From assembly GCF_002201475.1 (NCBI RefSeq), contig NZ_CP021422.1, forward strand, positions 930,001 through 994,000: a stretch of DNA of 64,000 bases, in the 5' to 3' direction. The stretch comes from Acutalibacter muris. Its GTDB lineage: Bacteria > Bacillota > Clostridia > Oscillospirales > Acutalibacteraceae. Below are positions 12,282 through 39,796 of this stretch, piece by piece. The position numbers were made by a program, and so were the translations under genes. A model generated the notes under the pieces. The model saw only the letters and a program-made list of their open reading frames with translations. It did not search any database and had not been told where the DNA came from. Numbering within the stretch: position 1 is the stretch's first letter; each line of letters begins with the position of its first letter.

Positions 12282-12282
12282 A

Positions 12283-24451: not shown

Positions 24452-24493
24452 ATAACTAAAGAAAATATAAAAATGAGAGAAGGAGGCACTAGT

Positions 24494-25474
24494 ATGAAGA
24501 TAGGCCTGGGAATCATAGGGTACGGAGGCATGGGGGAGCTTCACCATAAATATGCCGCGCAGGCGGGAGGATACAATATAATAGGGGCCTATGACGTTGA
24601 CGCGGCCCGGCGGGCGGCGGCGGAGGCCGGCGGCATACGCACTTTCGGCTCGCTGAAGGCCCTGCTGGGGTGCAGGGAAATAAACACCGTCTTGGTCTGC
24701 GCGCCCGCCGGCCGGCGCAGTGAGCTGTGCGTGGCCGCGGCAAGGGCGGGAAAGCATGTGGCCTGTGCCGCGCCCGCCGCCTTCAGCGTCTGGGAGCTGG
24801 ACCAGATAATTGCCGCCATAGGACGTGGCGGCAGGGTGCTCGCCGTCTGTCAGGACCACCGCCGGGACAGGGATTTCTGCGTGGTGAAGAAGCTGCTCAA
24901 TACCGGCCGGCTGGGAAGGGTGTATTCCCTGCAGGCCAGACTGCAGGGGCGCGGAGCCCTGCCAGGCTGGGGGCTCTCTGCGGGAGAGAGCGTTTTGTAC
25001 AGCTGGGGGGTGCATGTGATAGACCAGCTCATGTGGCTTTTGGGATACGACGATTTCATAAGCGTGTTTTGCAGGACCTGCAAAACCGGGCTTTCCCATA
25101 CGGAGAATTACTGCCTTCTGGTCTTTAACCTGGAGAGCGGCGGCGTGGTGGAGATAGAACTTGACAGCTCCGCCCCAGAGACGTCGCCGCGCTGGACGAT
25201 CCTGGGGGACAGGGCGGCAGCCTGCCTGGGCGGAACTGCGGGAGAGGGGCGCACCCTCCTTCTGGAGCCCGGTGCAGAGGGCCGGGAGCTGCCTCTGCCG
25301 GAGCCGGAGGAGACGGGGGACGCTCTTGCTGCATACTATGAGAATCTGCGGGAGGTTATAGACGGAAGCGGGACGCTGGCAGCGCAGCCCTGGCAGGTTC
25401 GCCGGGTACTGAAGGCTGTAGAGGCGGCGCTTCAGTCTGCGGAAACAGGGAAACTTGTCAGTTTAAAGGGCTAA
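24494..25474 (+). CDS. Gfo/Idh/MocA-family protein lacking the EKP motif
   Basis: A 326-residue protein with an N-terminal Rossmann domain (GIIGYGGMGELHHKY) and the C-terminal dehydrogenase fold (SWGVHVIDQLMWLLG). The family's EKP motif, whose Lys is catalytic, is replaced by Ala92-Ala93-Pro94 in HVACAAPAAFS, and the usual Asp of the DxGxH motif is Ser (LYSWGVH). It therefore may not be a normal oxidoreductase; it could sense a sugar nucleotide or ligand, or catalyse a different reaction. The ATG at 24494 follows GAAGGAGG. It is the first gene of a locus with a two-component system 55 bp downstream, which makes a signalling role conceivable (inference). Confidence 0.75.
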   Translation: MKIGLGIIGYGGMGELHHKYAAQAGGYNIIGAYDVDAARRAAAEAGGIRTFGSLKALLGCREINTVLVCAPAGRRSELCVAAARAGKHVACAAPAAFSVWELDQIIAAIGRGGRVLAVCQDHRRDRDFCVVKKLLNTGRLGRVYSLQARLQGRGALPGWGLSAGESVLYSWGVHVIDQLMWLLGYDDFISVFCRTCKTGLSHTENYCLLVFNLESGGVVEIELDSSAPETSPRWTILGDRAAACLGGTAGEGRTLLLEPGAEGRELPLPEPEETGDALAAYYENLREVIDGSGTLAAQPWQVRRVLKAVEAALQSAETGKLVSLKG

Positions 25475-25529
25475 GGGCAGGCGCAAGTATTGTCTTTCGC
25501 CGTATGCTTTCTGGAAAGGAGAGCCTAAT

Positions 25530-27308
25530 ATGTCTCTGAAAAAGAAACTGATGCTGACAATGATTGGCATTGCCGTGCTGCCGATAGTTCTGCTGGGAAG
25601 CTTCTGCTACGGTTACTTTAAGCAGGTGCTGCTGACGGACATCCAGCAGAGCGAGCTGCAGCATAACAGCCAGACTATCTACGTGATGGACAGCTTTTTC
25701 CAGTCACTGGAAAAGATCTCCGATTCGCTGCTTATGAACCCGCAGCTGACGGAGGCCCTGGAGCGCGCCTATTCCGGCCCGACGGCTAGGGTGCTGAATT
25801 ATAGGGACAAACAGAATATAGAGGACGTGCTGTACCGCAACGGCTACTACCTGGACAATCGGATCGCCACCATCGCGGTGTTTCCGGAAAACAGCGATAT
25901 GTTCTATTACTGCACCAAGCATACCATCAATCCAAATTACGACGTGAAGGAGGAAAGCTGGTATGAGGAAGTGGTGGAAAATGAGGGTGCGCTCACTCTT
26001 ATCGGCGTACATGAGAACCTGTTGGTACAGCCGGATTCCACCGGGGAAAACAGATATTGCGTCACCCTGGGGCGAAGTCTGCATTCTCCCCGCAGCTCCC
26101 GGCTGCTGGGGGTTGTTTTGATAAACGTCGGTGTACAGGACCTCCGAAAGCTCTGGCCCCAGCGCCAAGAGGATCCACAGGAGCGCTTTTATCTCCTGGA
26201 CAGCCATTCGCGGGTGGTATACAGCGATATAGAGGAGGAGATAGGCGGTATGTTTTTTATGCCGGAGCTGGGCGGCGGGGTCACCACGGCGCGGGTGGAC
26301 GGGGCGCTCTGCGACATAATGGTGTCAGAATCCTCAAACCCCGGCTGGAAGGGGGTCAAGCTCATAATGCGCAGCAAGCTGAACAGGGAGATCGCGGCCA
26401 TGCCATATATCTCGATTCTTCTGGGGCTCCTCCTCATCTGTTTGGCGGTGGTCATGGCGCACTTCCTGTCGAAGGTCATCACCCGGCCTTTGCAGGAGCT
26501 TTACACAAAGCTTTGCAGCTTCGAGGCCCAAAAAAGCGGGGCGGATTTTCGGGAGAACCAGGTGGGGATAAAGGGGCTTTCCAACAGCTATAACAGCATG
26601 ATAGAGGAGATAAATAACCTGACCGTGCGCAACTATGAGACCCAGACGCGGCTTAGAAAGACCGAGCTTCTGGCGCTGCAGTTCCAGATAAACCCGCACT
26701 TTGTGTATAACACTATAAGCTCCATCAAATGGATGGCGGAGATGCAGGGCTCAAAGCGCATGGTGACGGCTCTGGAGTCGCTGATAAAGCTGCTCCAGTT
26801 CTCCTCGAAGAATGATAGGGATATGGTCCCCATCAGAGACGAGGTGCTTTTTATAAAGGACTATCTCAATCTGATAAACCTAAAGTATTTCGACAAGATA
26901 CAGGCAGATATAAAAATGGGACCGGATACGGAGGACTGCGCGACCCTGCGATTTCTGCTCCAGCCTATTGTTGAGAATTCCATCTGCCACGGCTTCAGCG
27001 AGTTTAAGCAGCCCTATCAGGACGCGGCTATCAGTGTTGATATAAGGCGGGACAGCGGCCGAATAGTGTATGAGGTGACGGACAACGGAAAGGGAATGAC
27101 CCAGGAACAGATCCAGCGGGCGCTGGAATCGGAGCACCCGGCAAGTTCCTTGTCCTTCAACAAGATTGGCCTATACAATGTGCAGAAGCGGATACAGTAC
27201 ACCTTTGGAAGCCAGTACGGCGTTAGAATAGATAGTAAGCCGGGAGAATATACCCGGGTGCTGGTAGAGATACCCGCCAGAGCCTATAAGGAGGGAGACA
27301 ATGAATAG
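25530..27308 (+). CDS. YesM-type sensor histidine kinase
   Basis: A 592-residue membrane kinase. TM1 is near residues 10-28, an extracytoplasmic sensor of about 250 residues (dCache-like size) follows, TM2 is near 290-312 (ISILLGLLLICLAVV), then HAMP and linker. The His-kinase motif LQFQINPHFVYN has phospho-acceptor His390, and the HATPase has DNGKGM. This group senses extracellular sugars and partners with AraC-type response regulators such as YesN. The next gene is exactly that and overlaps by 8 bp. Probably detects the substrate of the adjacent importer or a related carbohydrate. Confidence 0.92.
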   Translation: MSLKKKLMLTMIGIAVLPIVLLGSFCYGYFKQVLLTDIQQSELQHNSQTIYVMDSFFQSLEKISDSLLMNPQLTEALERAYSGPTARVLNYRDKQNIEDVLYRNGYYLDNRIATIAVFPENSDMFYYCTKHTINPNYDVKEESWYEEVVENEGALTLIGVHENLLVQPDSTGENRYCVTLGRSLHSPRSSRLLGVVLINVGVQDLRKLWPQRQEDPQERFYLLDSHSRVVYSDIEEEIGGMFFMPELGGGVTTARVDGALCDIMVSESSNPGWKGVKLIMRSKLNREIAAMPYISILLGLLLICLAVVMAHFLSKVITRPLQELYTKLCSFEAQKSGADFRENQVGIKGLSNSYNSMIEEINNLTVRNYETQTRLRKTELLALQFQINPHFVYNTISSIKWMAEMQGSKRMVTALESLIKLLQFSSKNDRDMVPIRDEVLFIKDYLNLINLKYFDKIQADIKMGPDTEDCATLRFLLQPIVENSICHGFSEFKQPYQDAAISVDIRRDSGRIVYEVTDNGKGMTQEQIQRALESEHPASSLSFNKIGLYNVQKRIQYTFGSQYGVRIDSKPGEYTRVLVEIPARAYKEGDNE

Positions 27309-28866
27309 GATTAGGATCGCGGTGATTGACGACGACAGTCTGATACGCCTGGGCATCTGCTCCTCGGTGGACTGGGGACAGCACGGCTATGAGGTGGTAG
27401 GGGAGGCGGACAATGGACAGACCGGCTGGGAGATGCTCCAGCGCGCACAGCCGGACATCGTGTTCCTGGACATCAGTATGCCGGTGATGGACGGAATAGA
27501 GGTATTAAAGCTTATGCAGCAGACAGGAGTGCGCACCAAAGCGGTTATACTCAGCTGCCACGACGATTTTCACCTGGTGAAGGAGGCCATGAAGAACGGC
27601 GCCTATGATTACCTGCGCAAAAGCGAGATAAACAGCGACAACCTTCTGTGCGTTCTGGACGAGATATGCCGGTCCCTGCAGGAGAGGGATCTTGCCGGGG
27701 AACAGGCGGCGCAGGGGAATTGGGAAAATTACTCCAACAGATACGCCAGCCTGAAGCGGCTGGTCACAGGCCGCGGCAGTGAGGGCGGGCACGCCGGCCA
27801 GGACACCCGGTGGCTTTCCATAAGGGAGAGGGAGCTGTACTGTGTAACCTTTGCCGTGGCAGGGTATCAACAGGTGATACAGCGGTACGATGAGGGTTAT
27901 CCCTTCACCCTTGAGCACGGTGTGGTGAACCTGTCCAAGGAGGTGCTGCGGCAGAGGACCACAGAGGTGGAGCTATTCGTGTTGAAGGAGAACCAATATG
28001 TGCTGCTTTTAAGCGGCATGGAGCGGAGAGAGGAGCTGTTTTCCCTTCTGGAGCAGATGGCCTCCGTGCTGAAAAATTACCTGAATGTTGAGGTGCTCTT
28101 TGGCGTCGGCGGGGCCGTGCAGAGCTTTTCGGCGCTGCCGGGGGCCTTCCGGCAGGCGGTATACTCCCGGAAGCTCCACTATTTTAGGCCGCAGGAAAGA
28201 ATTATCCAGGAGACCCGCCCCCCGGAGAATACCCTAAACGACCCGGTCCTCCAGCCGCTGACGGAGGGGGTAAAGGGCGCGGCGGAGCAGAAGAACTACC
28301 CTCAGCTTTTTGCCGGCCTTAACAAGATTCTCCAGTGGCTGCACCGGCACGAGGGTAGAAATTTGGAGGTGGACGGGATACAGGAGTTTTTGCAGGAGAC
28401 CGTCCGGCTGGTACTGGTGCAGGAGGGCAGGCCGGCGGAACAGTCCTTGAGAAAGCTGCAAGGCTGCGGGAGCCTGGAGGAGACGGAGGAGTTCTTTGCC
28501 GGGCTGCAGAAGGAGGTTCAGGCCGACGGCTCGGGCCGGAACCACTACCTTATCCGGGCGGCCACGGAGTATATCAGGCAGAACCTAAGCCGGGGGGACA
28601 TCTCCCTTGGGGAGATAGCGGACTATCTTATGATAAGCAAATCCTATCTCTGCCGCCTTTTCCAGAAAAAGCTCGGGGTTTCGGTGCAGCATTATATCCA
28701 CAATATACGTATCGAGAAAGCAAAGGAATATCTGAACGATTTTCATTTGAAGATATATGAAATAGCGGAGCTGACGGGCTTCAACAGCTCTACCCACTTC
28801 AATATCGTTTTTAAAAAGATAATGAACTGCACCCCGGTGGAATACCGCAACGGCCTGAAGCATTAA
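27301..28866 (+). CDS. YesN-type response regulator with AraC DNA-binding domain
   Basis: A 521-residue regulator. The receiver domain (residues 1-125) has the acidic pair in VIDDDSLIRLG and phospho-acceptor Asp57 in FLDISMPVMDG. A middle region of unknown fold follows, and the last 100 residues are an AraC double helix-turn-helix (SLGEIADYLMISKSYLCRLF, IYEIAELTGFNSSTHFNIVF). It overlaps the kinase gene. The presumed target is the promoter of the ABC importer operon beginning just downstream, as in other YesM/YesN-SBP arrangements. Confidence 0.93.
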   Translation: MNRIRIAVIDDDSLIRLGICSSVDWGQHGYEVVGEADNGQTGWEMLQRAQPDIVFLDISMPVMDGIEVLKLMQQTGVRTKAVILSCHDDFHLVKEAMKNGAYDYLRKSEINSDNLLCVLDEICRSLQERDLAGEQAAQGNWENYSNRYASLKRLVTGRGSEGGHAGQDTRWLSIRERELYCVTFAVAGYQQVIQRYDEGYPFTLEHGVVNLSKEVLRQRTTEVELFVLKENQYVLLLSGMERREELFSLLEQMASVLKNYLNVEVLFGVGGAVQSFSALPGAFRQAVYSRKLHYFRPQERIIQETRPPENTLNDPVLQPLTEGVKGAAEQKNYPQLFAGLNKILQWLHRHEGRNLEVDGIQEFLQETVRLVLVQEGRPAEQSLRKLQGCGSLEETEEFFAGLQKEVQADGSGRNHYLIRAATEYIRQNLSRGDISLGEIADYLMISKSYLCRLFQKKLGVSVQHYIHNIRIEKAKEYLNDFHLKIYEIAELTGFNSSTHFNIVFKKIMNCTPVEYRNGLKH

Positions 28867-28916
28867 GTAATAATCGCCGTTGGTCAATATCCATAAAAAA
28901 GCGGCAATGTGGTTTA

Positions 28917-28946
28917 TTGAAACAATAGGCCTGGTTAGATTATACT
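28917..28946 (+). promoter_or_regulatory. Promoter of the ABC importer/radical enzyme operon
   Basis: TTGAAA (28917-28922) and TATACT (28941-28946) are 18 bp apart, roughly 90 bp before the binding-protein start. The response regulator encoded upstream probably acts here (inference). Confidence 0.55.
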
Positions 28947-29037
28947 ATAATCACCATTAAGTATGGAAAATATCATGCAAAAGGAGGTGGCAAAAAGTTT
29001 AGGCTCAGACCAAAATAAAAGAATTGAGGTAAAGAAA

Positions 29038-30357
29038 ATGAAAAAAGTATTAGCGTTATTATTGGTATTATTGATGGTCGCCTCCTTTGCGGCCTGCGGG
29101 CAGAGCGGGAATAATTCCTCTACGCCCAGCAGCAAGGCGGAGAACAGCGAGAGCTCCGGCCAGGAGAGCTCTGAGGTCCAGGAGGACAGCCAGGCTTCCT
29201 CCGAAGGGAACAGCGGCGAGGTCGTCACCATCCGCATGGGCGGCTGGGGTGACTTTAACACAGAGCATGAGGCCGGCACCGAGGGTATGGCAGAGGCCAT
29301 CGGCGTTGAGGTGGAGTTCCAGAAGTATCCCACCGACTCTGCCTTCTGGGACAACCTGCCCGCTCAGATAGCGGCCAAGACAGCTCCTGATTTTATCGCT
29401 CTGACAAACGAGCTGTACCTGCCATATATCAAGGACGGCCTTATCGTGCCCATCGACCAGTACATTGAGGACGGCACCATCACCTGCTGGGATAAGGTCG
29501 GCCAGAACGTAAAGGACATCTGGACCATCGACGGACAGATATACGGTGTTCCCTGGCACCAGACCCCCGCAGTGTTCGCCATCAACATGGACCTCTGGGA
29601 GGAGGCCGAGCTCACCGAGGCCGACCTGCCCGAGACTTGGGATGACGTTCTGGAGGCCTGCAAGGTCTTTAAGGACAAGCTGGGCATGACCGGCCTGTGC
29701 TTTAACACCCAGGAGTTCCACTTTACCCAGTATTGCCTGTCCTATGGCGGCGGCTGGGGCCTGGGCAAGACCATCGACACCCCTGAGAACGCGGCGGCTC
29801 TGCAGTTCATTATCGACGCTTACCGTCAGGGTTATGTTGTCACCCCCAAGGAGCTGGGCGTCAGCTATGACGGAAACGTTGTAATGTCCGGCGACGCGGC
29901 AATGTCCACCGGCGGCACATGGTATGTGAACGACTTCATGCGCAACGCTCCCGATGTGAACGTGAAGTATATCACCATCCCACACGCCGAAGGCAAGAAC
30001 GATGTTTCCGGCACCTTCCATGCCCCCTGCTACGCTATACTGAAGGGCGGCTCCCACGAGAAGGAGACGGCACAGGCCATCAACTATATGATGAACGACA
30101 AGCTTTTCGATCATTTCTGTGATATCGGCTACATCCCCGCCGACCCCGACTACTTCGAGACCTTCAAGGAGAGGCAGCCCGAGCTTGCAAGCCTTGTGGA
30201 CGCTGTGCCCAAGTCCAACGGCTTTGGCTATCCCGCGGCGGGCAAGAAGTTTGCCGACGCGCTTATCTCCAAGATGGAGGAGGCCCTTTTCAACTCTGAT
30301 TCCACTGTTACCGGCGCTCAGATAGTCAAGGAGCTGCAGGAGGAGTTCGGAGAATAA
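29038..30357 (+). CDS. Sugar ABC transporter solute-binding lipoprotein
   Basis: A 439-residue lipoprotein. The signal KKVLALLLVLLMVASFAAC has the lipobox and is followed by a Ser/Glu-rich linker. The mature part is a family 1 (MalE/UgpB-like) sugar-binding protein, with VTIRMGGWGDFNTEHE at the first strand, DGLIVPIDQYI and DGQIYGVPWHQTPAVFAIN in the hinge region. The start at 29038 was chosen because it begins the signal peptide and follows GAGGTAAAG; the frame is open further upstream but without signal features. It captures a carbohydrate outside the cell for the two permeases that follow. Confidence 0.93.
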   Translation: MKKVLALLLVLLMVASFAACGQSGNNSSTPSSKAENSESSGQESSEVQEDSQASSEGNSGEVVTIRMGGWGDFNTEHEAGTEGMAEAIGVEVEFQKYPTDSAFWDNLPAQIAAKTAPDFIALTNELYLPYIKDGLIVPIDQYIEDGTITCWDKVGQNVKDIWTIDGQIYGVPWHQTPAVFAINMDLWEEAELTEADLPETWDDVLEACKVFKDKLGMTGLCFNTQEFHFTQYCLSYGGGWGLGKTIDTPENAAALQFIIDAYRQGYVVTPKELGVSYDGNVVMSGDAAMSTGGTWYVNDFMRNAPDVNVKYITIPHAEGKNDVSGTFHAPCYAILKGGSHEKETAQAINYMMNDKLFDHFCDIGYIPADPDYFETFKERQPELASLVDAVPKSNGFGYPAAGKKFADALISKMEEALFNSDSTVTGAQIVKELQEEFGE

Positions 30358-30390
30358 AATTTGAATCACTGATACGATTCAGAGATGTGG

Positions 30391-30431
30391 TGTGGTCTCC
30401 CTGCCGGCTGCGTCCGGCGGGGGGACCCACA
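30391..30431 (+). promoter_or_regulatory. Strong hairpin between binding protein and permease genes
   Basis: TGTGG..CTCCC..TGCCGG on the left pairs with CCGGCGGGGGGA..CCACA on the right (imperfect stem, 6-nt loop). No T run follows, so it is probably not a full terminator. Hairpins here usually protect the binding-protein mRNA and lower permease expression. Confidence 0.55.
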
Positions 30432-30458
30432 TATATATAAGAAAGGGGCTTATATAAA

Positions 30459-31379
30459 ATGACGGCTGAAAACACAGGAGGTAAGAAAAAGAAACACAGT
30501 AAAATGAGACGGCAGGAGGCCGTTGCCGGCTGGATATTCGTACTGCCCGCCGTGCTCTTCTGGCTGATATGGTTCCTATACCCTGCCCTAAAGGCCATAT
30601 CTATCAGCTTTTACCAGTACAACTACGCCACGCCCGAAACCAATATGTTCGTGGGCCTTGCAAACTACGTTCGGCTCTTTCAGGACACAAAGTTCTTTAC
30701 GGCCATGGGCCACAGCTTCTTTATGGTGGCCGTAATCGTTCCGCTGCAGACCCTGCTCTCCTTTGCCGTGGCGGTGCTGCTCAACGGTCCCATACGGCTC
30801 AAGGGCTTCTATCGCTCCAGCTGCTATATACCCTATGTCATATCCGCAATGGCGGTGACGATCTTCTTCATGTATTTCTTCGTCAAGGGCGGGCCCGCAT
30901 CCTCCTTCTTTGCTATGCTGGGGCTTGAGAACGTCAGCTGGTTTGCCAGCACCAAGTACGCCATGGCCTTTCTTATCATCGTCTACGTCTGGCAGCAGGT
31001 GGGGTTCTATATGGTCATCTTCATAGGGGCCCTTCAGGAGGTGCCCGTGGAGCTCTATGAGGCCGCAAAGGTGGACGGCGCCAACTCCTGGCAGAGGCTG
31101 ACGAAGATAACCGTACCCATGATAAAAAACACCACCTATCTGGTGCTGACCTTCGGCATGATAAACGCCTTCCAGATATTCGACCAGATAGCGGCCATGT
31201 CCAAGCAGTCCCCCCTGGGGTCCCCCTCGGGAGCCACCAGCACGCTGGTCACCTTCCTGTACCAGCAGTCCTTCAGCTATATGGACATGGGCTATGGCAG
31301 CGCGGCGGCGGTGGTGCTGTTCCTGATAATCTTCTCGCTGTCCGCTGTGAGAGAGGTCCTTGGAAGGAGGTCGGACTGA
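30459..31379 (+). CDS. Sugar ABC transporter permease (LacF/UgpA type)
   Basis: A 306-residue inner-membrane subunit with six predicted helices. The EAA loop, which contacts the ATPase, is visible as YEAAKVDGANSWQRLTKITVP. The N-terminus is cytosolic and basic (KKKKHSKMRRQEA), then AGWIFVLPAVLFWLIWFLYP opens the first helix. It pairs with the next permease. No ATPase gene is in the locus, so a shared MsmK/UgpC-like ATPase elsewhere in the genome is required. Confidence 0.93.
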   Translation: MTAENTGGKKKKHSKMRRQEAVAGWIFVLPAVLFWLIWFLYPALKAISISFYQYNYATPETNMFVGLANYVRLFQDTKFFTAMGHSFFMVAVIVPLQTLLSFAVAVLLNGPIRLKGFYRSSCYIPYVISAMAVTIFFMYFFVKGGPASSFFAMLGLENVSWFASTKYAMAFLIIVYVWQQVGFYMVIFIGALQEVPVELYEAAKVDGANSWQRLTKITVPMIKNTTYLVLTFGMINAFQIFDQIAAMSKQSPLGSPSGATSTLVTFLYQQSFSYMDMGYGSAAAVVLFLIIFSLSAVREVLGRRSD

Positions 31380-31380
31380 G

Positions 31381-32196
31381 ATGGCTAAAAAACGCATTGG
31401 CAAGGTATTCACATATCTGTTCCTGCTATGCCTGGCGCTGATATTTTTGGTGCCGGTGTTCTACGTGTTCTATAACTCGCTGCTGCCAAAGCGCTATATC
31501 GGTACCTTTGTGTCGCCGGATATCTGGAGCCTTGACAACTATAAGGAGCTCTTCTCGAAGTTTCCCATACTGAGATGGTACGGCAATACGGCCCTTTCCA
31601 CCGTGGCGGTGGTGGCGGGCAACATCTTCTTTACGCCCCTGGCGGGATACGCCTTGGCAAGGCTGCGGTTTCCGGGCCGCAAGGTCATCTTCCTCTGCCT
31701 TATGCTCTCCATGATGATCCCCGGCCAGTTGGTGCTGCTGCCGCAATATATCATGATGGCAAAGGCCGGGCTGGTGGATACCCTCTGGGCCATAACCCTG
31801 CCGTACCTGTCCCAGTCCATGTTCATCTTCATGTCCCGGCAGTTTTTCTACGGCATACCCGAGGAACTGGAGGAGGCGGCGCGCATTGACGGCCTTGGGC
31901 GCTTCGGCACCTATTTCCGCATAGTGCTGCCCATATCCGGGGTGCTGCTGGCGACCATTGCCATATTCAATTTTACAGGCACCTGGAATTCCTATCTGGT
32001 GCCCTCGACCTTCATAAGCTCGGCGGACAAATATGTGCTTGTGGTGGGCCTGCAGACGGTGAACAACCAGCATTTCCAGCAGGAAAACCTGACACTGGCG
32101 GGAGTGGTGCTCCTCTCCTTCCCGGTAATTGGGTTCTTCATGTTCACCCAGAAGTTCTTTGTGCAGGGCATCGCCACAGCCGGACTAAAAGGATGA
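31381..32196 (+). CDS. Sugar ABC transporter permease (LacG/UgpE type)
   Basis: A 271-residue membrane subunit with six predicted helices and the EAA loop EEAARIDGLGRFGTYFRIVLP. The ATG at 31381 directly follows the stop of the first permease and has GAAGGAGGTC upstream, so the two are translated together. It ends in FVQGIATAGLKG, typical for the family (the usual GLTAGAVKG-like end). Imports the sugar bound by the upstream lipoprotein. Confidence 0.93.
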   Translation: MAKKRIGKVFTYLFLLCLALIFLVPVFYVFYNSLLPKRYIGTFVSPDIWSLDNYKELFSKFPILRWYGNTALSTVAVVAGNIFFTPLAGYALARLRFPGRKVIFLCLMLSMMIPGQLVLLPQYIMMAKAGLVDTLWAITLPYLSQSMFIFMSRQFFYGIPEELEEAARIDGLGRFGTYFRIVLPISGVLLATIAIFNFTGTWNSYLVPSTFISSADKYVLVVGLQTVNNQHFQQENLTLAGVVLLSFPVIGFFMFTQKFFVQGIATAGLKG

Positions 32197-32258
32197 TGGC
32201 TATACAAAGGGTATAGTTTATCATATAGAATTTTAATTCTGTTAGGAGGAAAGTTGTA

Positions 32259-33347
32259 ATGAAAAAATGGAAGGTTGCGCTTATAGGCTGCGGCTCCATT
32301 GCGGACAACACCTATCTGCCCAGGATCAAGGACATTCCCGAGGCGGATATGGTGGCGGTCTGCGACATCATCCCGGAGAGGGCTAAAGCATACTCCGAAA
32401 AGTTCGGGGTGCCAGCCTGGTATTCCAGCATCGACGAGCTGCTGGAGAAGTGTGATTTTGAGATCCTGATGAACACCACCTCCATCCCGGCTCACCATGA
32501 GATCAACATGAAGGCCTTAAAGGCCGGAAAGCATCTCTATTCCCAGAAGCCGGTGGGCCTTACGGTGGAGGAGGTCACAGAGCAGATCGAGGCGGCCAAG
32601 GCGGCGGGAGTCAAATACACGGCCTCTCCCATCCATATGCTGCGCGACGACCTCCGCTTTGCTAAAAAGCTCATTGCCGACGGCTGCATAGGGGAGATAA
32701 TGAAGGTGCACACCAACGTCTGCCACGGCGGACCGGAGTATTTCCAGTACCGCACCGCCGACCCCACCTGGTTCCACCGTCCGGGCAGCGGCGCCCTGTA
32801 CGACATGGGCGTACACGGCCTTACCATGACCACCGGCCTTCTCGGTCCCGCAAAGGCCGTCGGGTGCATGGCGAAGATCTCGGAGCCCCTGCGCACCGTG
32901 CGCTCTGGCAGCTTTGACGGCATGAAGATCGAGGCCGATCAGCTTTACGACAACTACATCATCACCCTGGACTACGGCGACCGCACCATGGCCGTGGTGG
33001 AATCGGGCTTCTGCCAGAAGGGGAGCCGGGCCCCCCAGATGGAGATCTTCGGCACAAAGGGCACCATATCCTTTGTGGACAACGGCAACTGGATGCCCCT
33101 TGACATCTATCTGGACGCGCCGGAGCGGGGCCTTAGAGGCTGGATGAAGCCCATGGAGTGGGATATTCCCGCCAGCGAGCAGAACTTCTTCCAGTGCATG
33201 GTGGTACAGGACCTGATACACGCCATCGAGGAGGACCGCCCCGTGGGCCTGCCCCCCGAGCACGCAAGGCACGTTGTGGACATCATGTGCACCATACCCG
33301 AGGCCATAGAAACCCGCAGCGTGGTGCCGCTGCACACCACGTTCTAA
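32259..33347 (+). CDS. Gfo/Idh/MocA-family oxidoreductase
   Basis: A 362-residue NAD(P)-dependent sugar or polyol dehydrogenase. The Rossmann loop is ALIGCGSIADNTYLP, the catalytic-lysine motif reads QKPVGLT (Gln instead of the usual Glu), and the DxGxH motif is YDMGVHGLT. The substrate domain includes YRTADPTWFHRPGSGALYD. The family oxidises or reduces ring hydroxyls of inositols, glycosides or anhydrosugars. It follows the importer after 62 bp and is one of three canonical members in this operon, which suggests successive or reversible redox steps on one sugar. Confidence 0.88.
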   Translation: MKKWKVALIGCGSIADNTYLPRIKDIPEADMVAVCDIIPERAKAYSEKFGVPAWYSSIDELLEKCDFEILMNTTSIPAHHEINMKALKAGKHLYSQKPVGLTVEEVTEQIEAAKAAGVKYTASPIHMLRDDLRFAKKLIADGCIGEIMKVHTNVCHGGPEYFQYRTADPTWFHRPGSGALYDMGVHGLTMTTGLLGPAKAVGCMAKISEPLRTVRSGSFDGMKIEADQLYDNYIITLDYGDRTMAVVESGFCQKGSRAPQMEIFGTKGTISFVDNGNWMPLDIYLDAPERGLRGWMKPMEWDIPASEQNFFQCMVVQDLIHAIEEDRPVGLPPEHARHVVDIMCTIPEAIETRSVVPLHTTF

Positions 33348-33392
33348 ACAATACTACACAATACTATAAAGGAAAGGGATTATATTTTAGCT

Positions 33393-34514
33393 ATGAAAAA
33401 ATATCGTATCGGTCTTGTGGGCTTCGCCCATATGCACGTGCTGGACCAGATAAAGCCCTTTTTGACCATGCCCCAGCGGGTGGAGTGGATAGGCGCGGCG
33501 GACATAAAGCCCATGGTGGAGTCCGAGTATTTCGAGAGCTCCAGCCGCAGCAGGAATCTGGAACTGTGCAAAAAGCAGTGCGGCTTTGAGAAGGTCTATG
33601 AGGACTATAAGGAGCTTCTGGACCAGAAGCCTGATCTGGTGCTGGTAAACTGCGAAAACGCCTTTCACGGCACTGTGATACCCGAGATACTCATGCGCGG
33701 CATCCATGTGGTGGTGGAGAAGCCTCTGGCCTATTCCACGGCCCATGCCATGGCCATTGAGCGCGCCTCCCGTATAGGCGGGGCAGAGTGCATGATAAAC
33801 TGGCCCACCACCTGGCAGGCCAGTGTGCGCCTGGGCCAGAAACTGGTCAGTGAGGGCGTTATCGGCAAGGTATACCGCTTCCAGTTCCGCAACCCGGACT
33901 CCATGGGCCCCTTCTCCTACGGCCAGGTAATGACCGACCGGCAGCTGGGTAAGGAGTGGTGGCATCAGGAGGCCGCCGGCGGCGGCAGTATGCTGGACTA
34001 CTGCTGCTACGGCACTATACTCTCCAACTGGTATCTGAGCCAGGAGCCCCAGGGAGTCTACGGACTGAAGGCCAACTTCAACCACAGGTTCGGGGACGCG
34101 GAGGACTACGCCTCCCTGATGGTGCGCTATCCCGAGGCGGTCTCTATTTTAGAGGGCACCTGGAACACCATCAGCAGCGGCTATCCCTCCGGGCCCATCG
34201 TCTGGGGGGAGAAGGGGGCGCTTATAGTGGAGAACGGTGGGGAGCATGGAGCCCTTCCCAACGTGTGCGTGTACCGCGACAGGTATTCCACCACCCCCAA
34301 CGAGGTCTACAGCTCCGGCGACTATCCGCTGCCCGAGGGCCGGGAGGATCTGGCCAAGGAGGTCTTCCACCACCTGGAAACCGGCGAACCCATACACTAT
34401 ACCATGGACCTTAAGAATAACCTCTGGTCCGCCGCCATGCTGGACGCGGGCCTGCGCTCCAGTCGGTCGCTGAAAATGGAGGACGTCAAAAACGCCTGTT
34501 GGACTATCGGCTGA
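33393..34514 (+). CDS. Gfo/Idh/MocA-family oxidoreductase, GFAHMH subgroup
   Basis: A 373-residue member with an altered nucleotide loop, GLVGFAHMHVLDQI, in place of GxGxxG, as in some subfamilies. The EKP motif is intact (VVVEKPLAYS). The segment equivalent to DxGxH reads GSMLDYCCYGTI and lacks the His. The C-terminal domain contains ILEGTWNTISSGYPSGP. It probably acts on a sugar different from, or at a step different from, the other two members in the operon. 45 bp after the previous gene and 26 bp before a TIM-barrel gene. Confidence 0.85.
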   Translation: MKKYRIGLVGFAHMHVLDQIKPFLTMPQRVEWIGAADIKPMVESEYFESSSRSRNLELCKKQCGFEKVYEDYKELLDQKPDLVLVNCENAFHGTVIPEILMRGIHVVVEKPLAYSTAHAMAIERASRIGGAECMINWPTTWQASVRLGQKLVSEGVIGKVYRFQFRNPDSMGPFSYGQVMTDRQLGKEWWHQEAAGGGSMLDYCCYGTILSNWYLSQEPQGVYGLKANFNHRFGDAEDYASLMVRYPEAVSILEGTWNTISSGYPSGPIVWGEKGALIVENGGEHGALPNVCVYRDRYSTTPNEVYSSGDYPLPEGREDLAKEVFHHLETGEPIHYTMDLKNNLWSAAMLDAGLRSSRSLKMEDVKNACWTIG

Positions 34515-34540
34515 GAGGAAACTTATAAGGAGGAGAATAA

Positions 34541-35428
34541 ATGAAACTAGCAAACGTTGCCTGGGGCTGGACGCCAATACCCGAGGATATGCCCGAGGGG
34601 GATTCCCTTATAAAGATCGCCAGTGAGATCCGTGCCCTGGGCTTTGAGGGCGTGGACTATCTGGGCACGCCCGAGGCTCTGGACCAGTTCTTTACAAAGG
34701 AGACCGCAAACGCCCTTGGGGAGCACTCCCGCGCCATAGGCCTTGAGCCCAACGTGTTCGTATTCCAGGAGGCGGGCTGGAACGACCCGGACAGCGCCCG
34801 GAACGCGGACTGTCTGGCCCACTTTGAAAAGGCTGCTGAGACCGCAGTAAATATCGGCTGCAAGATAGTCTCAACCCTTGTGCCACTGCCCTTTGGGGCC
34901 AAGGCTTGGCATTTCAACCCCGCCGCCCCCGCCATCAAGCAGAGCTACCGTATGCCCGCCGGCTACTGCTACAAAAAGGACTGGGAGACCCTGATGGAGA
35001 GCTACCGCAAGTGCCTTGCCATCGCCAAAAAGCATGGACTGCGTATGTCTGTGGAGTGTTTCCCCGGCTCTATAATCTCCACACCCCACGCCATGCTGAA
35101 GCTGCTGGAGGACGTGAACGACCCGGACTTCGGTATCCAGCTGGACACGAACCACCTGGTGGCACAGCATATTGACCCGGAGTGGAGCATCTATGTTCTG
35201 GGCGGGGAGCGTATCTTCAACGTCCACTGCAAGGACTGCGACGCGGTGTCCAGAAGCAATATCCCCGCCGGCTGCGGCATAACGGACTATACGGCGGTCA
35301 TAGAGGCGCTGAAGAAGGTTGGCTATAAGGGCAACTTGTCCGTAGAGCTGGAATTCACCGACAATCCCCGCCGTTATAATAAGCAGGCTCTGGATCACCT
35401 CAAGCTCTGCCTTGCCGGGGAATATTAA
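34541..35428 (+). CDS. TIM-barrel sugar isomerase/epimerase family protein
   Basis: A 295-residue protein of the xylose isomerase-like (AP endonuclease 2) superfamily. Metal ligands can be read in order: Glu in RMSVECFPG, Asp in GIQLDTNHL, His in IFNVHCKDCD and Glu in LSVELEF. Members include IolE, IolI, tagatose epimerases and C-glycoside-cleaving enzymes, so isomerisation, epimerisation or elimination on a keto-sugar are possible. The gene sits between Gfo/Idh/MocA genes, the common pairing in which an oxidised ring is then isomerised or cleaved. GGAGGAG ribosome site. Confidence 0.85.
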   Translation: MKLANVAWGWTPIPEDMPEGDSLIKIASEIRALGFEGVDYLGTPEALDQFFTKETANALGEHSRAIGLEPNVFVFQEAGWNDPDSARNADCLAHFEKAAETAVNIGCKIVSTLVPLPFGAKAWHFNPAAPAIKQSYRMPAGYCYKKDWETLMESYRKCLAIAKKHGLRMSVECFPGSIISTPHAMLKLLEDVNDPDFGIQLDTNHLVAQHIDPEWSIYVLGGERIFNVHCKDCDAVSRSNIPAGCGITDYTAVIEALKKVGYKGNLSVELEFTDNPRRYNKQALDHLKLCLAGEY

Positions 35429-35455
35429 GGCTGATTATTTTAAGGAGAGCAATTT

Positions 35456-36583
35456 ATGAAAACATATAAGGTTGCCATTATCGGCAACGGCATGATCTGC
35501 AACGCCGCCCATATCCCGGCCTATAAGGCCATGGGGGACAGGGTGGAGCTGGCCGCTGTGGCGGATATCCGCGAGCAGGCCGCCCGGGAGACCGCACAGC
35601 GCCACGGTATTCCCAAATACTATACCGACCCCCAGAAGATGCTGGAGGAGGTAAAGCCGGACATCATCTCCGTCTGCACCCCCAACGCCTATCACAAGAA
35701 GTACACCCTTATGGGCTTTAAGGCCGGGTGCCATGTGATTTGTGAAAAGCCGGTGGCCATGAGCCGGGCGGACGCGAGGGAGATGTTCGAGGCCGCCGAG
35801 GCGGCCGGCCGGCAGCTGTTTGTGATACAGTCCCTGCGCTTTACCGGCAATTTCAGCGCCGCCGCGGAGTTTGCCAAGGACGGCTGTCTTGGGGACATCT
35901 ATTACGCCGACCTTAACCTGGTGCGGCGGCGGGGAGTCCCCCGCTGGGGTATGTTCCATATGGCCAGTGAGAACGTGGGAGGATCCTTCTGCGACCTGGG
36001 CGTGCATATGTGCGACTATCTGATGTACATCTCCGGCAACCCAAAGATGACCGCGGTAAGCGGCAGCGCTGTCACAAGGATAGTGAACAAGGAGGAGAAC
36101 GTGACCTTCTCCAACGCCGAGAGCGGCGCGCCCACGGGACTTTTCACCCCCAGAAAGTTCGATATGAAGGAGTTTGATGTGGAGGAGTTCTCCAACGGGT
36201 ATATCCGGCTGGATAACGGCATGACCGTCACCTTCAAGATATCCTGGGCTCTAAACCAGCCCAACTGCAACACCGTCAGTATCTGTGGAGACAAGGGCGG
36301 CCTTACCATAGGCGACGACGGCCTGCGGCTGCTGACCACCCAGGGGGCCTTCCAGACAGACGTGACTCCCAGGGTGTTCCCGGACGAGTATTCGGCCCTG
36401 TCGGATTTTACCGGACATATACACGAGCTCGAGTATATCCTGAAGGTGCTGGAGGGGGATATGACCATGGAGGAGTATCCCATCAAGCGTGAGGAGGTCA
36501 TGAACGTGGTCTCCATAATCGAGGCCTTCTACAAATCCTCGGAGCTTAAAAGGGAAGTGCGTTTTGAGGAACTGAGCAAGTAA
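35456..36583 (+). CDS. Gfo/Idh/MocA-family oxidoreductase
   Basis: A 375-residue member. The nucleotide loop is AIIGNGMICNAAHIPAY, EKP is intact in CEKPVAMS, and the DxGxH motif is CDLGVHMCDYL. The C-terminal domain has PTGLFTPRKFDMKEFDVEEF, a typical substrate-domain stretch. It is the most canonical of the four in this region. It lies between the TIM-barrel gene and the glycyl radical activase gene, separated from the latter by a GC-rich hairpin. Confidence 0.9.
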   Translation: MKTYKVAIIGNGMICNAAHIPAYKAMGDRVELAAVADIREQAARETAQRHGIPKYYTDPQKMLEEVKPDIISVCTPNAYHKKYTLMGFKAGCHVICEKPVAMSRADAREMFEAAEAAGRQLFVIQSLRFTGNFSAAAEFAKDGCLGDIYYADLNLVRRRGVPRWGMFHMASENVGGSFCDLGVHMCDYLMYISGNPKMTAVSGSAVTRIVNKEENVTFSNAESGAPTGLFTPRKFDMKEFDVEEFSNGYIRLDNGMTVTFKISWALNQPNCNTVSICGDKGGLTIGDDGLRLLTTQGAFQTDVTPRVFPDEYSALSDFTGHIHELEYILKVLEGDMTMEEYPIKREEVMNVVSIIEAFYKSSELKREVRFEELSK

Positions 36584-36596
36584 TTACCGTTGACCC

Positions 36597-36623
36597 CGGC
36601 GCGGCGACTTTCCCGCCGCGCCG
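36597..36623 (+). promoter_or_regulatory. GC hairpin before the radical enzyme pair
   Basis: CGGCGCGGCG and CGCCGCGCCG make a 10-bp stem with a 7-nt loop, 25 bp before the activase start. With no proper T run it may be an attenuator or mRNA-processing element that sets the level of the last two genes. Confidence 0.45.
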
Positions 36624-36647
36624 AATCTTTATAGAAGGGGAGAAGCC

Positions 36648-37550
36648 ATGAAAGGCGTGATCACAGAAATAGAGAGATTTTCACTAAGGGACGGGCCGGG
36701 GATACGCACGACAGTGTTTATAAAGGGGTGCAATATGGCGTGCAAGTGGTGCCATAACCCGGAGACGCTGCAAATCAGGCCCCAGCTGATGGTGTACCCG
36801 GAGAAGTGCCTGGGCTGCGGGGCATGTGTAAGGGCCTGTAAATCAGGGGCCAGGAGCATTAAAGATGGGAGGCTCCTTTATGACCGCGCCCTCTGCACCG
36901 GCTGCGGGGCCTGTGCCGGCGGCTGCTTTACCGGGGCGCTGGTGCTCTCCGGCAGGGAGATGACAGTGGAGCAGGTCATGGGGGAGATACTCCAGGACCG
37001 GGCCTATTACGAAAATTCGGGCGGCGGCGTTACCCTGTCTGGCGGTGAGCTTACCACCCAGCCGGAGTTTGCAAAGGCGCTGCTGGAGGCCATAAAGGCG
37101 CAGGGTATCTCCACGGCCCTGGAGACCAATATGCACGCTCCCTGGCACATATATGAGAGCCTGCTGCCCTTGGTGGACCTTGTGATGTTCGATATAAAAA
37201 TCTTCGACGCGGCGGCCCACAAAAAATGGACCGGTGTCGGCAACGACAGGATTTTGAAGAATGCCAAAAGACTGGCGGAGTCGGGAAAGGATTTCCTTGT
37301 CAGGACCCCTGTTATACCCGGCGTCAACGACGCTGAGGAGGAGATCGGCAATATCGCGGAGTTTGTGGGGGGCCTTGGTGGAGCGCAGTATTACGAGCTG
37401 CTGCTCTTTAACCCGCTGGGCGAGAGCAAGTACCAGGCCCTGGAGGCGGACAACCGCTTTAAAGGGGCACGTCCCTCGCCCCAGGATACCGCCGAAAGGC
37501 TGAGACGGACAGCCGAGAGGCGCTCGGGCCTGCCGGTGCGTGTGGGCTAG
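36648..37550 (+). CDS. Glycyl radical enzyme activase (radical SAM)
   Basis: A 300-residue radical SAM enzyme. RFSLRDGPGIRTTVFIKGC opens the family. The SAM-cluster cysteines are in CNMACKWCHNPE, and an inserted ferredoxin-like domain carries two further 4Fe-4S motifs, CLGCGACVRAC and CTGCGACAGGC. The GGE-like SAM contact is SGGELTTQPEF. The double-cluster insert is typical of activases for non-PFL glycyl radical enzymes (dehydratases, lyases, decarboxylases) and not of PflA. It installs the glycyl radical on the enzyme encoded 38 bp downstream. It works only under anaerobic, reducing conditions. Confidence 0.95.
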   Translation: MKGVITEIERFSLRDGPGIRTTVFIKGCNMACKWCHNPETLQIRPQLMVYPEKCLGCGACVRACKSGARSIKDGRLLYDRALCTGCGACAGGCFTGALVLSGREMTVEQVMGEILQDRAYYENSGGGVTLSGGELTTQPEFAKALLEAIKAQGISTALETNMHAPWHIYESLLPLVDLVMFDIKIFDAAAHKKWTGVGNDRILKNAKRLAESGKDFLVRTPVIPGVNDAEEEIGNIAEFVGGLGGAQYYELLLFNPLGESKYQALEADNRFKGARPSPQDTAERLRRTAERRSGLPVRVG

Positions 37551-37588
37551 GGCCTTACGGAGAGCTGCATAGAGAAAGGATGTGCTAT

Positions 37589-39796
37589 ATGGAAAACAGG
37601 CTCAATATTTTCCGGCCGGAGGAGCCCATGGATTTTGGGCGCCGGATAAAGATACTCAAGGAGCGCAAGCTTGAGGAGACCAAAGTGAAATCCAAGATGA
37701 AGGTGTATCAGGACGGCGACGACTATGGCAGCGTCCCGGCGCCGGAGGACTACAAGTTTCACTGCCTCCCGAACCACGAGAACGGCTCCTGGTACGGCTA
37801 TGAGGGCTGGAGCAAAAACTTCCACAAGCTCATGAGCGAGCACCCGGTGTATATCGACTCGGTGGACGCGTTCTCCTGCCGGTGGATGTACAGCATGATA
37901 TGGTTTGACGAGAAGTCCCCGGCAAAGGGGCTCAACTGGAACCCGGACTACTCCTATGACCACTTAAAGCCGGAGCAGGAGAAATACGGAATAGTGTCCG
38001 GCATCGGCTCTGACGCCCACTTCGGGGGCGACTATGAGCTGGGGCTCTCCCTGGGCTGGGGCGGGCTGCTGGAGAAGCTGGCGGCCTATAGGGAGAAGAA
38101 CCCGGGACACGACGAGTTCTACGACGCGGAGGAGCTGGTGATACAGGGCGTGCAGAACTGGATGCGCCGGGCCATAGAGGAGGCGGAGCGTCTGGCCGAA
38201 AAGGAACGGCATCCCCTCCTAAGAGAAAACCTGCTCCAGATGGCGCAGGTCAACAGGAATATTCTCAGCGGCGCGCCGAAGACCATGCGGGAGGCCTGCC
38301 AGTGGGTCTGCTGGTTCAATATGGCCAGCCGGACCTATAACCGGGACGGCGCGGGCTTCCAGCTGGACCAGGTGCTGAAGCGTTACTACGACGCGGACCT
38401 TGCCGCCGGGCGGATAACCCGGGAGGAGGCGGTCTTCTATATCGCCTGCCTCTTGCTTAACGACCCCCATTACTACCAGATAGGCGGCACGGACGAGGAG
38501 GGCAATTCACTGCTCAGCGAGTTCAGCGATATGGTGCTGGAGGGGGCGGATATGCTGGATTCCGCCTGCAATATCACCGTGCGGGTGGACAGGAACATGG
38601 ACCGGGACTTCCTGCACCGAGCGGTGGACTACCTCTTTAAGAACTGCAACGGCTGGCCCCGCTTCTCCGGGGACGAGGCCCTGAACGAGGGCTTCATGCG
38701 CCTGGGGTACCCGGAGAGCCTTGCGAGAAAGCGCATAGCGGTGGGCTGCCACTGGATGAGCCTGCCCGGCATGGAATACTGCCTCAACGACTGTGTGAAG
38801 ATAAACTGCGCCAAGGTCCTCGAGGTGGCCCTGGACGAGATGATGGCGGGGAGGGGACCCTATTCCACCGCGAGGCTGTGGGAGATCTATGAAAAGCATA
38901 TGGCCCGGGCGGTGGAGGTCACCGCCGAGGGCATAGCCTTCCATCTCAAGTACCAGCAGTACAACGAGCCCGAGCTCCTGCTGAACCTTATAAGCCACGG
39001 ACCGGTGGAAAAAGGGTTGGACATGACCTGCGGCGGGGCCATGTACTATAATATGTGCATGGACGGCACGGCTATTGCCACGGTGGCGGACTCCTTCGGG
39101 GCCCTGGAGCAGCGGGTGGAAAAGGAATCCCGGCTGAGCTGGGAGGAGCTCTATAAGCACCTGAAGACCGACTTTAAGGAGGAGGGCGGCGAGATAGTCC
39201 GGCGTATGCTGTCCTCCAGCCCCCGCTACGGCGGCGGAGACACCGTCAGCGACCGCTGGGCCAAAAGGCTTTCGGAGTCCTACTCCGGCCAGGTGCGGGC
39301 CATCAGCAAGAGCTACCCGGACTATGAGTTTATCCCCGGCTGGTTCAGCTGGTCCAACACCATCGTGTTGGGCAAGCAGGTGGGGGCCACCCCCAACGGC
39401 CGGCACGCTTTCGAGCCCATAAACCACGGGGCCAATCCCCATCCTGGCTTCCGCAAGGACGGAGCCCTTACGGCCATGAGCAACTCCATCTGCGCCATAC
39501 AGCCCGGCTTCGGCAACACCGCCCCGGTGCAGCTGGAGCTGGACCCCGGAATGGGCCGGGGGGAGGAGGCGGTGCAGAAGATCGCCGACTATATCCTGAC
39601 CCTTTTCCAGAAGGGCGGTACGCTGCTGAATATCAACATTATCGACAGCAGGCAGATCCTGGAGGCGGACAAGGACCCGGACAAATACCCGGACCTGGTG
39701 GTGCGCGTCACCGGCTTCACCGCCTACTTCTGCTCTCTCACCCCTGAGTTCCGTAAGCTTGTGGTGGATAGGATTCTGGTACAAGGCGGGGCCTAA
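37589..39796 (+). CDS. Glycyl radical enzyme with atypical GCHW active-site loop
   Basis: A 735-residue glycyl radical enzyme. The radical glycine is Gly709 in RVTGFTAYFCSLTPEF, the conserved C-terminal motif. The active-site cysteine is Cys387 in AVGCHWMSLPG, at the position where dehydratases and lyases read GCVE or GCIE; here the Glu two residues after Cys is Trp. The N-terminal half has HPVYIDSVDAFSCRW and HFGGDYELGLSLGWGG, aligned with family landmarks. Loss of the Cys-x-Glu base means it is unlikely to be a standard diol, choline, isethionate or hydroxyproline enzyme, and PFL has Cys-Cys. With neighbours for sugar import and redox, it probably cleaves or rearranges a sugar-like molecule. 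ATG at 37589 follows AAAGGATG. Confidence 0.9.
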   Translation: MENRLNIFRPEEPMDFGRRIKILKERKLEETKVKSKMKVYQDGDDYGSVPAPEDYKFHCLPNHENGSWYGYEGWSKNFHKLMSEHPVYIDSVDAFSCRWMYSMIWFDEKSPAKGLNWNPDYSYDHLKPEQEKYGIVSGIGSDAHFGGDYELGLSLGWGGLLEKLAAYREKNPGHDEFYDAEELVIQGVQNWMRRAIEEAERLAEKERHPLLRENLLQMAQVNRNILSGAPKTMREACQWVCWFNMASRTYNRDGAGFQLDQVLKRYYDADLAAGRITREEAVFYIACLLLNDPHYYQIGGTDEEGNSLLSEFSDMVLEGADMLDSACNITVRVDRNMDRDFLHRAVDYLFKNCNGWPRFSGDEALNEGFMRLGYPESLARKRIAVGCHWMSLPGMEYCLNDCVKINCAKVLEVALDEMMAGRGPYSTARLWEIYEKHMARAVEVTAEGIAFHLKYQQYNEPELLLNLISHGPVEKGLDMTCGGAMYYNMCMDGTAIATVADSFGALEQRVEKESRLSWEELYKHLKTDFKEEGGEIVRRMLSSSPRYGGGDTVSDRWAKRLSESYSGQVRAISKSYPDYEFIPGWFSWSNTIVLGKQVGATPNGRHAFEPINHGANPHPGFRKDGALTAMSNSICAIQPGFGNTAPVQLELDPGMGRGEEAVQKIADYILTLFQKGGTLLNINIIDSRQILEADKDPDKYPDLVVRVTGFTAYFCSLTPEFRKLVVDRILVQGGA

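Follow-up and report, generated by a model that had tools for sequence, protein, structure and literature searches.

In eliminases of the glycyl radical enzyme (GRE) family, a His/Asp pair serves the leaving group, and PflB, a pyruvate formate-lyase, cleaves a C-C bond. A conserved Glu of isethionate lyase is reported to be needed to deprotonate the substrate hydroxyl (PMC6453916). Of the E. coli GREs, PflD reportedly cleaves 1,5-anhydromannitol-6-phosphate and YbiW 1,5-anhydroglucitol-6-phosphate, both described as phosphorylated substrates that follow import by a phosphotransferase system (PTS) (PMC12441222). According to a review, many abundant gut GREs have no assigned function (PMC11574389). 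Another described group, the glycoside 3-dehydrogenases, includes DgpA and D3dgpA, and D3dgpA has been described as a regiospecific oxidiser of various C- and O-glycosides, with 3-oxo-sugars as acceptors. Here we describe a locus of Acutalibacter muris that encodes a GRE with an altered active-site motif together with a DgpA-like oxidoreductase. It lies in a stretch of 64,000 nucleotides (contig NZ_CP021422.1, positions 930,001 to 994,000), referred to below as the window, whose numbering is used throughout.

The locus consists of 12 open reading frames (ORFs) on the + strand, from 24473 to 39796, with intergenic gaps of -20 to 101 bases. The gene after the GRE begins 239 bases downstream of the set. 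The products are, in order, a Gfo/Idh/MocA protein (Gfo0), a sensor kinase (HK), a response regulator (RR), a solute-binding protein (SBP), permease 1, permease 2, Gfo1, Gfo2, a TIM barrel protein (TIM), Gfo3, a GRE activase (ACT) and the GRE (Table 1). An initial annotation had read 12 same-strand genes of these kinds, starting at 24494 and containing no sugar kinase, aldolase or transporter ATPase. The ORFs, Pfam and NCBIfam confirmed the gene kinds, with Pfam matches for all 12 proteins and NCBIfam matches for 7 of the 12. The Pfam matches of the set included none of the three absent functions and no PTS family. The start shifted, as the longest ORF of the first gene opens at 24473. The interpretation given there, an anaerobic locus joining sugar import and redox chemistry to a radical step, is partly supported. 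We suggest that the locus is an operon that responds to sugar and lets the cell use a sugar compound anaerobically, in which the GRE would act as a radical C-O lyase. We give this sequence-derived reading a probability of about 0.5.

PflD and YbiW resemble the A. muris system in pairing a GRE with an activase for hexose-derived rings. The window GRE has a His column in common with both and an Asp column in common with PflD. However, PflD and YbiW are only 25.9% and 23.7% identical to it, they keep the Cys-x-Glu motif of the eliminases, and their substrates reportedly follow PTS import, whereas the A. muris locus encodes a binding-protein importer.

The radical machinery of the window GRE looks ordinary, and in its predicted activation and radical sites the enzyme is like known GREs. 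The glycyl radical motif PF01228 scored over its cut-off. In an alignment of 104 locus rows, G712 is present in 103, with one gap, and the active-site cysteine C390 in 104. Two residues past this Cys, however, the Glu of the eliminases is replaced by Trp, and the motif reads Cys-x-Trp in 103 of the 104 rows. The sole exception, L053_1147, is an ordinary Cys-x-Glu GRE. In that region (L053:1147), the contig has a second GRE-activase pair, of this ordinary type. We call the Trp-containing enzymes W-type. Some of the sample had been collected by motif pattern, and one pattern includes the Trp, but 7 Trp-type rows carry neither pattern. Trp also fills the column in 121 of 121 rows made up of the window GRE and the best 120 of 2393 homologues listed by a sequence search. 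The other 102 W-type rows are 38.6 to 93.8% identical to the window GRE.

We compared six other GREs, namely PflD, YbiW, PflB and three further GREs of the A. muris genome, at the same columns. They are 21 to 26% identical to the window GRE (for PflB, over a part of its length). Glu stands at the Trp392 column in PflD, YbiW and the three other A. muris GREs. Seven residues past W392, the W-type enzymes have gained E399, where the six others have T, G, Q, S, A or a gap. All 104 rows hold His in the H147 column, as do PflD, YbiW and L001, and D404 is kept in 103 of 104 rows. The locus points to a whole GRE subfamily set apart by one clean change, in which the catalytic Glu has become Trp and a new invariant Glu has appeared. 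W-type GREs, having lost this Glu, must manage without the base, use E399 or another group in its place, or run another reaction.

The family models searched describe neither this Trp/Glu rearrangement nor the gene company around it. The window GRE fell under the cut-off of all 12 NCBIfam models that it matched. Against the PFL2-3 subfamily model TIGR01774 it reached 256.8 bits (curated score, 678.2), and against the pyruvate formate-lyase model TIGR01255 it reached 84.2 bits (cut-off, 994.2). Its best sequence match in the PDB is PflD, at 184 bits. It belongs to the same fold family as the glycerol/propanediol dehydratases and choline lyase and has their glycyl and cysteine sites. However, the dehydratase analogy implied by the initial annotation was rejected, on account of Cys-x-Trp in place of Cys-x-Glu and of the 12 unreached cut-offs. 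No description of a Trp-type GRE or of this gene company appeared in the titles and abstract openings listed by our searches of open-licence literature, which is a part of print at large, and in the same literature we found no paper joining a GRE with anhydroglucitol or a glycyl radical with GH92.

The 12-gene set is a real unit. All 12 genes were matched in the same order and on the same strand in L117, L118 and L119, whose GREs are 94, 90 and 83% identical to that of the window. The permeases, Gfo1, Gfo2 and TIM are 80 to 97% identical across the three loci. HK (86, 83 and 59%), RR (84, 81 and 54%) and Gfo0 (74, 69 and 45%) diverge faster than these. The Gfo0 match in L119 covers 285 of 333 residues and runs into the edge of the locus, with 1.3 kb separating it from the kinase; it may be another Gfo. 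The downstream YitT gene had no match at 1e-20 in the 2.3 to 4.1 kb past the GREs of the three relatives, and the upstream ClC gene had none in L118, the sole relative with enough flank (2.5 kb).

Beyond these relatives, the GRE is spread patchily. It was found in 6 of 60 genomes of one sample, in 27 of 391 genomes of the window's class and in 3 of 398 genomes of its phylum, A. muris being included each time. A motif-pattern scan of genome contigs yielded 272 stretches, 246 of which encode a GRE relative. The 80 retained include Clostridia, Spirochaetes, Lentisphaerota, Planctomycetes, Verrucomicrobia and Bacteroidota. A wide spread in Bacteroidota was rejected, because the single match among 395 sampled genomes was the seed (L056) itself. 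Two Bacteroidota loci, L094 and L095, lie on records labelled as plasmids.

We examined the gene neighbourhoods by clade. Clades A to E were named and assigned by us from a quick-method tree of 106 rows with long outgroup branches, for which no root is claimed. Clade A contains the window GRE and is mostly Clostridia. Clade B comprises Clostridia, Spirochaetes and Lentisphaerota; clade C comprises Bacteroidota and one Chlorobiota; clade D, with a weaker support of 82, comprises Planctomycetes and others; and clade E comprises genomes of the window's class. The loci were picked for their GRE, and their ORFs were called by a simple script of our own. The counts leave out L097 and L100 (duplicates) and L062 (GRE split in two ORFs), include L029 and L031 in clade A although they were dropped from the tree, and include both of the near-identical L013 and L014. 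Neighbour annotation was partial: 50 neighbour proteins were run against Pfam, and one listing alone contains 154 unlabelled same-strand neighbours. Neighbour proteins without a match may be false ORFs.

An activase lies within 5.5 kb of the GRE in 28/30, 19/19, 21/23, 8/8 and 9/12 loci of clades A to E, respectively, and in 94 of 101 loci overall. The corresponding counts are 15/30, 10/19, 1/23, 4/8 and 10/12 for Gfo genes and 11/30, 10/19, 1/23, 0/8 and 4/12 for TIM genes. The nine loci outside these clades have an activase in 9/9 and a Gfo in 3/9. Both families are enriched near the GREs (at most 5.5 kb) relative to far genes (more than 6.5 kb away). Gfo made up 89 of 844 near genes versus 7 of 287 far ones (Fisher p, 4e-6), and TIM made up 31 of 844 versus 2 of 287 (p, 0.007); given the relatedness of the loci, both p values serve as a guide only. 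The initial annotation had made recurrence of the genes in other genomes its test, and Gfo, TIM, activase and GRE genes do recur in company in distant genomes, with relatives of Gfo1 to Gfo3 among them.

Such relatives recur in clade E. According to blastp, Gfo2 relatives (30 to 36% identical) lie beside the GRE in 10/12 loci, Gfo1 relatives (51 to 57%) in 4/12 and a DgpA-like Gfo in 9/12. Four of these nine DgpA-like proteins are 43 to 45% identical to window Gfo3; the other five are the L105 query or are 75 to 90% identical to it. The clade-E GREs are only 47.5 to 49.2% identical to the window GRE. The Gfo-GRE association is therefore old or was rebuilt. In most clade-E loci, the Gfo2 type adjoins the activase. 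Within clade A, L016, L025 and L026 keep TIM (56 to 66%), a Gfo3 relative (46 to 48%), the activase and the GRE, and L020 keeps TIM (74%), the activase, the GRE and a more distant Gfo.

Among the oxidoreductases, Gfo3 appears closest to the C3-dehydrogenase type that acts on glycosides. Its nearest solved proteins are DgpA1 (1.2e-47) and DgpA (2.4e-46), and one clade-E Gfo type is likewise nearest DgpA (4.3e-53); both alignments cover nearly the whole length of DgpA. These matches strengthen glycosides, one of the substrate candidates of the initial annotation. They also tie the W-type subfamily to a glycoside-oxidising enzyme type. The best PDB match of Gfo1 is again DgpA, at 81 bits over residues 1 to 192 only. 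Gfo2 keeps EKP but has GFAHMH in place of the expected GxGxxG nucleotide loop. The Lys of the EKP motif is catalytic in Gfo/Idh/MocA enzymes. All four Gfo proteins previously listed are present; however, Gfo0 reads AAP at the position of the EKP or QKP of Gfo1 to Gfo3, and it is possibly noncatalytic. It may be a sensor or a regulatory relic rather than an enzyme. Within the set, Gfo0 belongs to the genes with lower conservation. In TIM, the residues E172, D202, H229 and E269/E271, a set that resembles a metal site, are invariant in 8 rows, window included. Glu-Asp-His-Glu residues are the metal ligands of xylose isomerase-like sugar epimerases. Most solved kin of SBP, at 55 bits or less, bear the names of sugar-binding or ABC transporter proteins.

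We infer the following steps for the operon. The sensor pair, HK and RR, would turn it on, and SBP with the two permeases would import an oligosaccharide-like compound or a glycoside. Gfo3 would oxidise or reduce C3, TIM, with its metal-site-like residues, would isomerise or epimerise next to the ketone, and Gfo1 and Gfo2 would carry out further redox steps. The W-type GRE would carry out a single radical step, on a hexose or hexoside that bears no phosphate. We suggest that this step is a C-O elimination, whether a dehydration, a ring opening or a deglycosylation. His147 and Asp404, aligned with those of PflD, would be retained for the leaving group. Trp392 would replace the Glu base, perhaps stacking on the sugar ring, and E399 may take over as the base. 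Gfo and TIM might make the GRE substrate or process its product. In favour of this reading are the intact GRE and activase with Gly and Cys sites, Trp392 and Glu399 in 103 of 104 rows with the His147 and Asp404 columns common with PflD, and PflD, a reported anhydrohexitol-phosphate cleaver, as the nearest solved GRE. Also in favour are the Gfo enrichment, the DgpA-like Gfo3, the Gfo1 to Gfo3 relatives beside clade-E GREs and the conserved 12-gene order. If it is true, anaerobes own a radical route into unphosphorylated sugars that lies outside the family models searched.

Several observations weigh against this reading. The loss of Glu could mean another type of reaction, and among the six other GREs only PflD has Asp at the D404 column. 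With Gfo genes near only 1/23 clade-C and 15/30 clade-A GREs, the pathway is not fixed, and substrates may differ by clade. As clade C mostly lacks a nearby Gfo, W-type GREs do not in general depend on prior oxidation, and the clade suggests that the GRE can take a sugar directly. For one clade-E Gfo2 type, the solved proteins gave no match at 1e-12, and a TIM-Gfo fusion of clade B matched 3q2i best (105 bits, versus 51.5 for DgpA). TIM itself has 6 weak PDB matches of 36 bits or less, two of them named sugar epimerases. With regard to a mannose-type substrate, seeds for GH92 and GH47 found matches near clade-C GREs only and none in the other groups, and GH92, GH47 and RhaT are all missing nearby in 5/23 clade-C loci. 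Single loci elsewhere have sulfatase, PL8, BNR, amidohydrolase, GH10 or GH65 neighbours. The varied neighbours may mean that substrates differ or that one sugar is reached by several routes.

The gene neighbourhoods also give a mannose lead. GH92 and GH47 are alpha-mannosidase families. One or the other is found at most 5.5 kb from the GRE in 13/23 clade-C loci (6 and 7, with no overlap), and RhaT-type transporters lie near 7/23. In this clade, genes for GH47, GH92, or an RhaT-type or MFS transporter often come after the GRE and a small protein. In another phylum, the W-type subfamily is tied to GH92 and GH47. The Flammeovirga kamogawensis plasmid record has GH130 and GH47 annotated near the GRE, that of Persicobacter psychrovividus has GH47 just 5' of the activase, and a neighbour in the planctomycete locus L081 has GH38 domains over the cut-offs. 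A mannose-6-phosphate isomerase-like gene lies near 14/19 clade-B GREs; its TIGR00218 score is 83.6 bits, below the cut-off of 116.2. On the basis of clade-C GH92 and GH47, this clade-B gene and the Flammeovirga GH130 and GH47, our best guess is a manno-configured substrate, although we hold it tentatively. The guess of a manno-type hexose joins the PflD substrate with the GH92 and GH47 families. By chemical reasoning, the axial C2 hydroxyl of a manno sugar would suit radical elimination from C1 or C3. It is also possible, though we would not count on it, that W-type GREs form a separate reaction class. They would then be radical C-O lyases for unphosphorylated manno-type hexoses or hexosides, with Trp on the sugar and E399 as base, serving a deoxy- or keto-sugar route in gut Clostridia, Spirochaetes, Lentisphaerota, Planctomycetes and Bacteroidota.

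The rival that fares best is the deglycosylation of a C- or O-glycoside. Gfo3 would make a 3-oxo-glycoside, the aglycone would be eliminated, and the GRE would open the leftover 1,5-anhydro or 3-oxo sugar. The resemblance of Gfo3 to DgpA, the reported action of PflD on an anhydrohexitol phosphate (PMC12441222) and an importer of the binding-protein type, which suits glycosides, all agree with such a route. The Dgp C-glycoside system shares a DgpA-type Gfo with the A. muris locus; unlike the latter, it has no GRE. A full Dgp system was rejected, as the gaps of at most 101 bases hold no separate ORF of at least 120 amino acids as a DgpB candidate, and TIM matched no chain named DgpC at 1e-4 in a PDB sequence search. 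A structure of DgpC has been solved. Gfo3 nonetheless remains DgpA-like. In clade C, moreover, Gfo genes are near only 1/23 GREs. We consider this route unlikely.

Somewhat less probable is a radical isomerase or epimerase that shifts a hydrogen from place to place on the sugar (at C2 or C3, for instance) with no loss of water, while Gfo, TIM and cupin partners finish the interconversion. The missing Cys-x-Glu fits such an enzyme, as do the TIM-barrel, mannose-6-phosphate isomerase-like and cupin-like partners in clades A, B and C. However, His147 and Asp404 are kept in the PflD columns to which leaving-group roles are ascribed, and ordinary isomerases do such reactions without radicals.

We rate lower still a C-C lyase acting on a Gfo-made keto-sugar in the manner of pyruvate formate-lyase. 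PflB likewise lacks the Glu, and the Gfo proteins would place a ketone beside the cleavage site. However, the Cys-Cys pair of PflB reads Gly-Cys in 103 of 104 rows, the TIGR01255 score is far below its cut-off, and Gfo genes are nearly missing beside the clade-C GREs. Inositol-type catabolism is very improbable. In it, Gfo would be the inositol dehydrogenase, TIM would serve as the inosose dehydratase or epimerase, and the GRE would act on a downstream diol. The locus has the Gfo and AP_endonuc_2 TIM barrel pairing of the IolG/IolE pathway, and Gfo1, Gfo3 and TIM score highest, among NCBIfam models, with IolG and IolE. However, the scores (83.6 and 97.5 against a cut-off of 355, and 44.7 against 290) come to roughly one quarter of the cut-offs or less, and Pfam matched no kinase, aldolase or other inositol-pathway family in the 12 genes, so that this filing, a candidate of the initial annotation, was rejected as weak.

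Table 1. Features of the A. muris W-type GRE locus, in window coordinates
Feature	Position	Strand	Basis
Sigma-70-like promoter match, 11/12, 5' of Gfo0	24423..24451	+	Consensus match only
Gfo0, Gfo/Idh/MocA protein, AAP for EKP	24473..25474	+	PF01408, 58.5 bits; sequence
HK, sensor kinase (His_kinase, HATPase_c, dCache_1)	25530..27308	+	Pfam; dCache 36.7 bits, below cut-off 45
RR, response regulator with AraC-type HTH	27301..28866	+	Pfam
Sigma-70-like promoter match, 10/12, 5' of SBP	28917..28946	+	Consensus match only
SBP, family-1 solute-binding protein	28963..30357	+	PF01547, 100.9 bits
Importer permease 1	30459..31379	+	PF00528, 64.6 bits
Importer permease 2	31360..32196	+	PF00528, 61.7 bits
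Gfo1, Gfo/Idh/MocA oxidoreductase (QKP)	32259..33347	+	Pfam; sequence
Gfo2, Gfo/Idh/MocA protein, EKP, nucleotide loop GFAHMH	33393..34514	+	Pfam; sequence
TIM, AP_endonuc_2 (xylose isomerase-like) TIM barrel	34541..35428	+	PF01261, 116.5 bits
Gfo3, DgpA-like Gfo/Idh/MocA oxidoreductase (EKP)	35456..36583	+	Best PDB matches DgpA1, DgpA
ACT, radical SAM GRE activase, extra 4Fe-4S motifs	36648..37550	+	TIGR02494, 331.3 bits (cut-off 174.35)
GRE, W-type, 738 amino acids	37580..39796	+	PF02901, 356.5 bits; PF01228, 51.7 bits (cut-off 22.2)
GRE H147	38018..38020	+	His in 104/104 rows; column is the His of PflD and YbiW
GRE C390-H391-W392: catalytic Cys, H/N/S, Trp	38747..38755	+	Trp in 103/104 rows
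GRE E399	38774..38776	+	Glu in 103/104 rows
GRE G712, glycyl radical site in VRVTGFTAYF	39713..39715	+	Sequence, alignment

The scan that gave the two promoter-like matches found 16 in all, versus 9.7 expected in shuffles. The A. muris genome is a single contig of 3.80 Mb with 4 PFL-like, 20 Gfo and 18 AP_endonuc_2 matches. About 0.06 Gfo genes would be expected by chance per 12.1 kb, versus the 4 found in this stretch, which was chosen for their presence. A GH3-family gene lies upstream of the 12-gene set on the opposite strand (20009-22222).

Two further proteins accompany the GREs of other clades. U261, a protein of 261 amino acids (L040:12282-13067 and relatives), lies near the GRE in 18/19 clade-B loci. 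It has strongly conserved His-rich motifs and had no Pfam, NCBIfam or significant PDB match. In clade C, 20/23 loci (among them L056, at 12151-12567) encode U138, of about 138 amino acids, no more than 5.5 kb from the GRE. It usually stands directly downstream of the GRE and is cupin-like by eye, and its nearest solved kin is CA_C3497 (3d0j, 5.6e-19). The larger cupin-like protein, as opposed to the small 3d0j-like one, had no significant PDB match (best E, 0.2). We read both proteins as probable cupins. A single cupin shared by clades B and C was rejected, with a profile comparison probability of 0.2%.

Some single loci have further neighbours. The AP_endonuc_2 TIM-Gfo fusion lies 5' of the activase and GRE at L052:7136-9073, and similar fusions occur in several other clade-B genomes. 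In L030 (2199-4186), DHDPS-family and BNR-repeat genes directly follow the W-type GRE, and L031 has a related DHDPS-like gene 5' of the activase. Amidohydrolase-family genes lie 5' of the activase-GRE pair at L017:283-1476 and L029:2576-3769, perhaps a hint at amino sugars in this branch.

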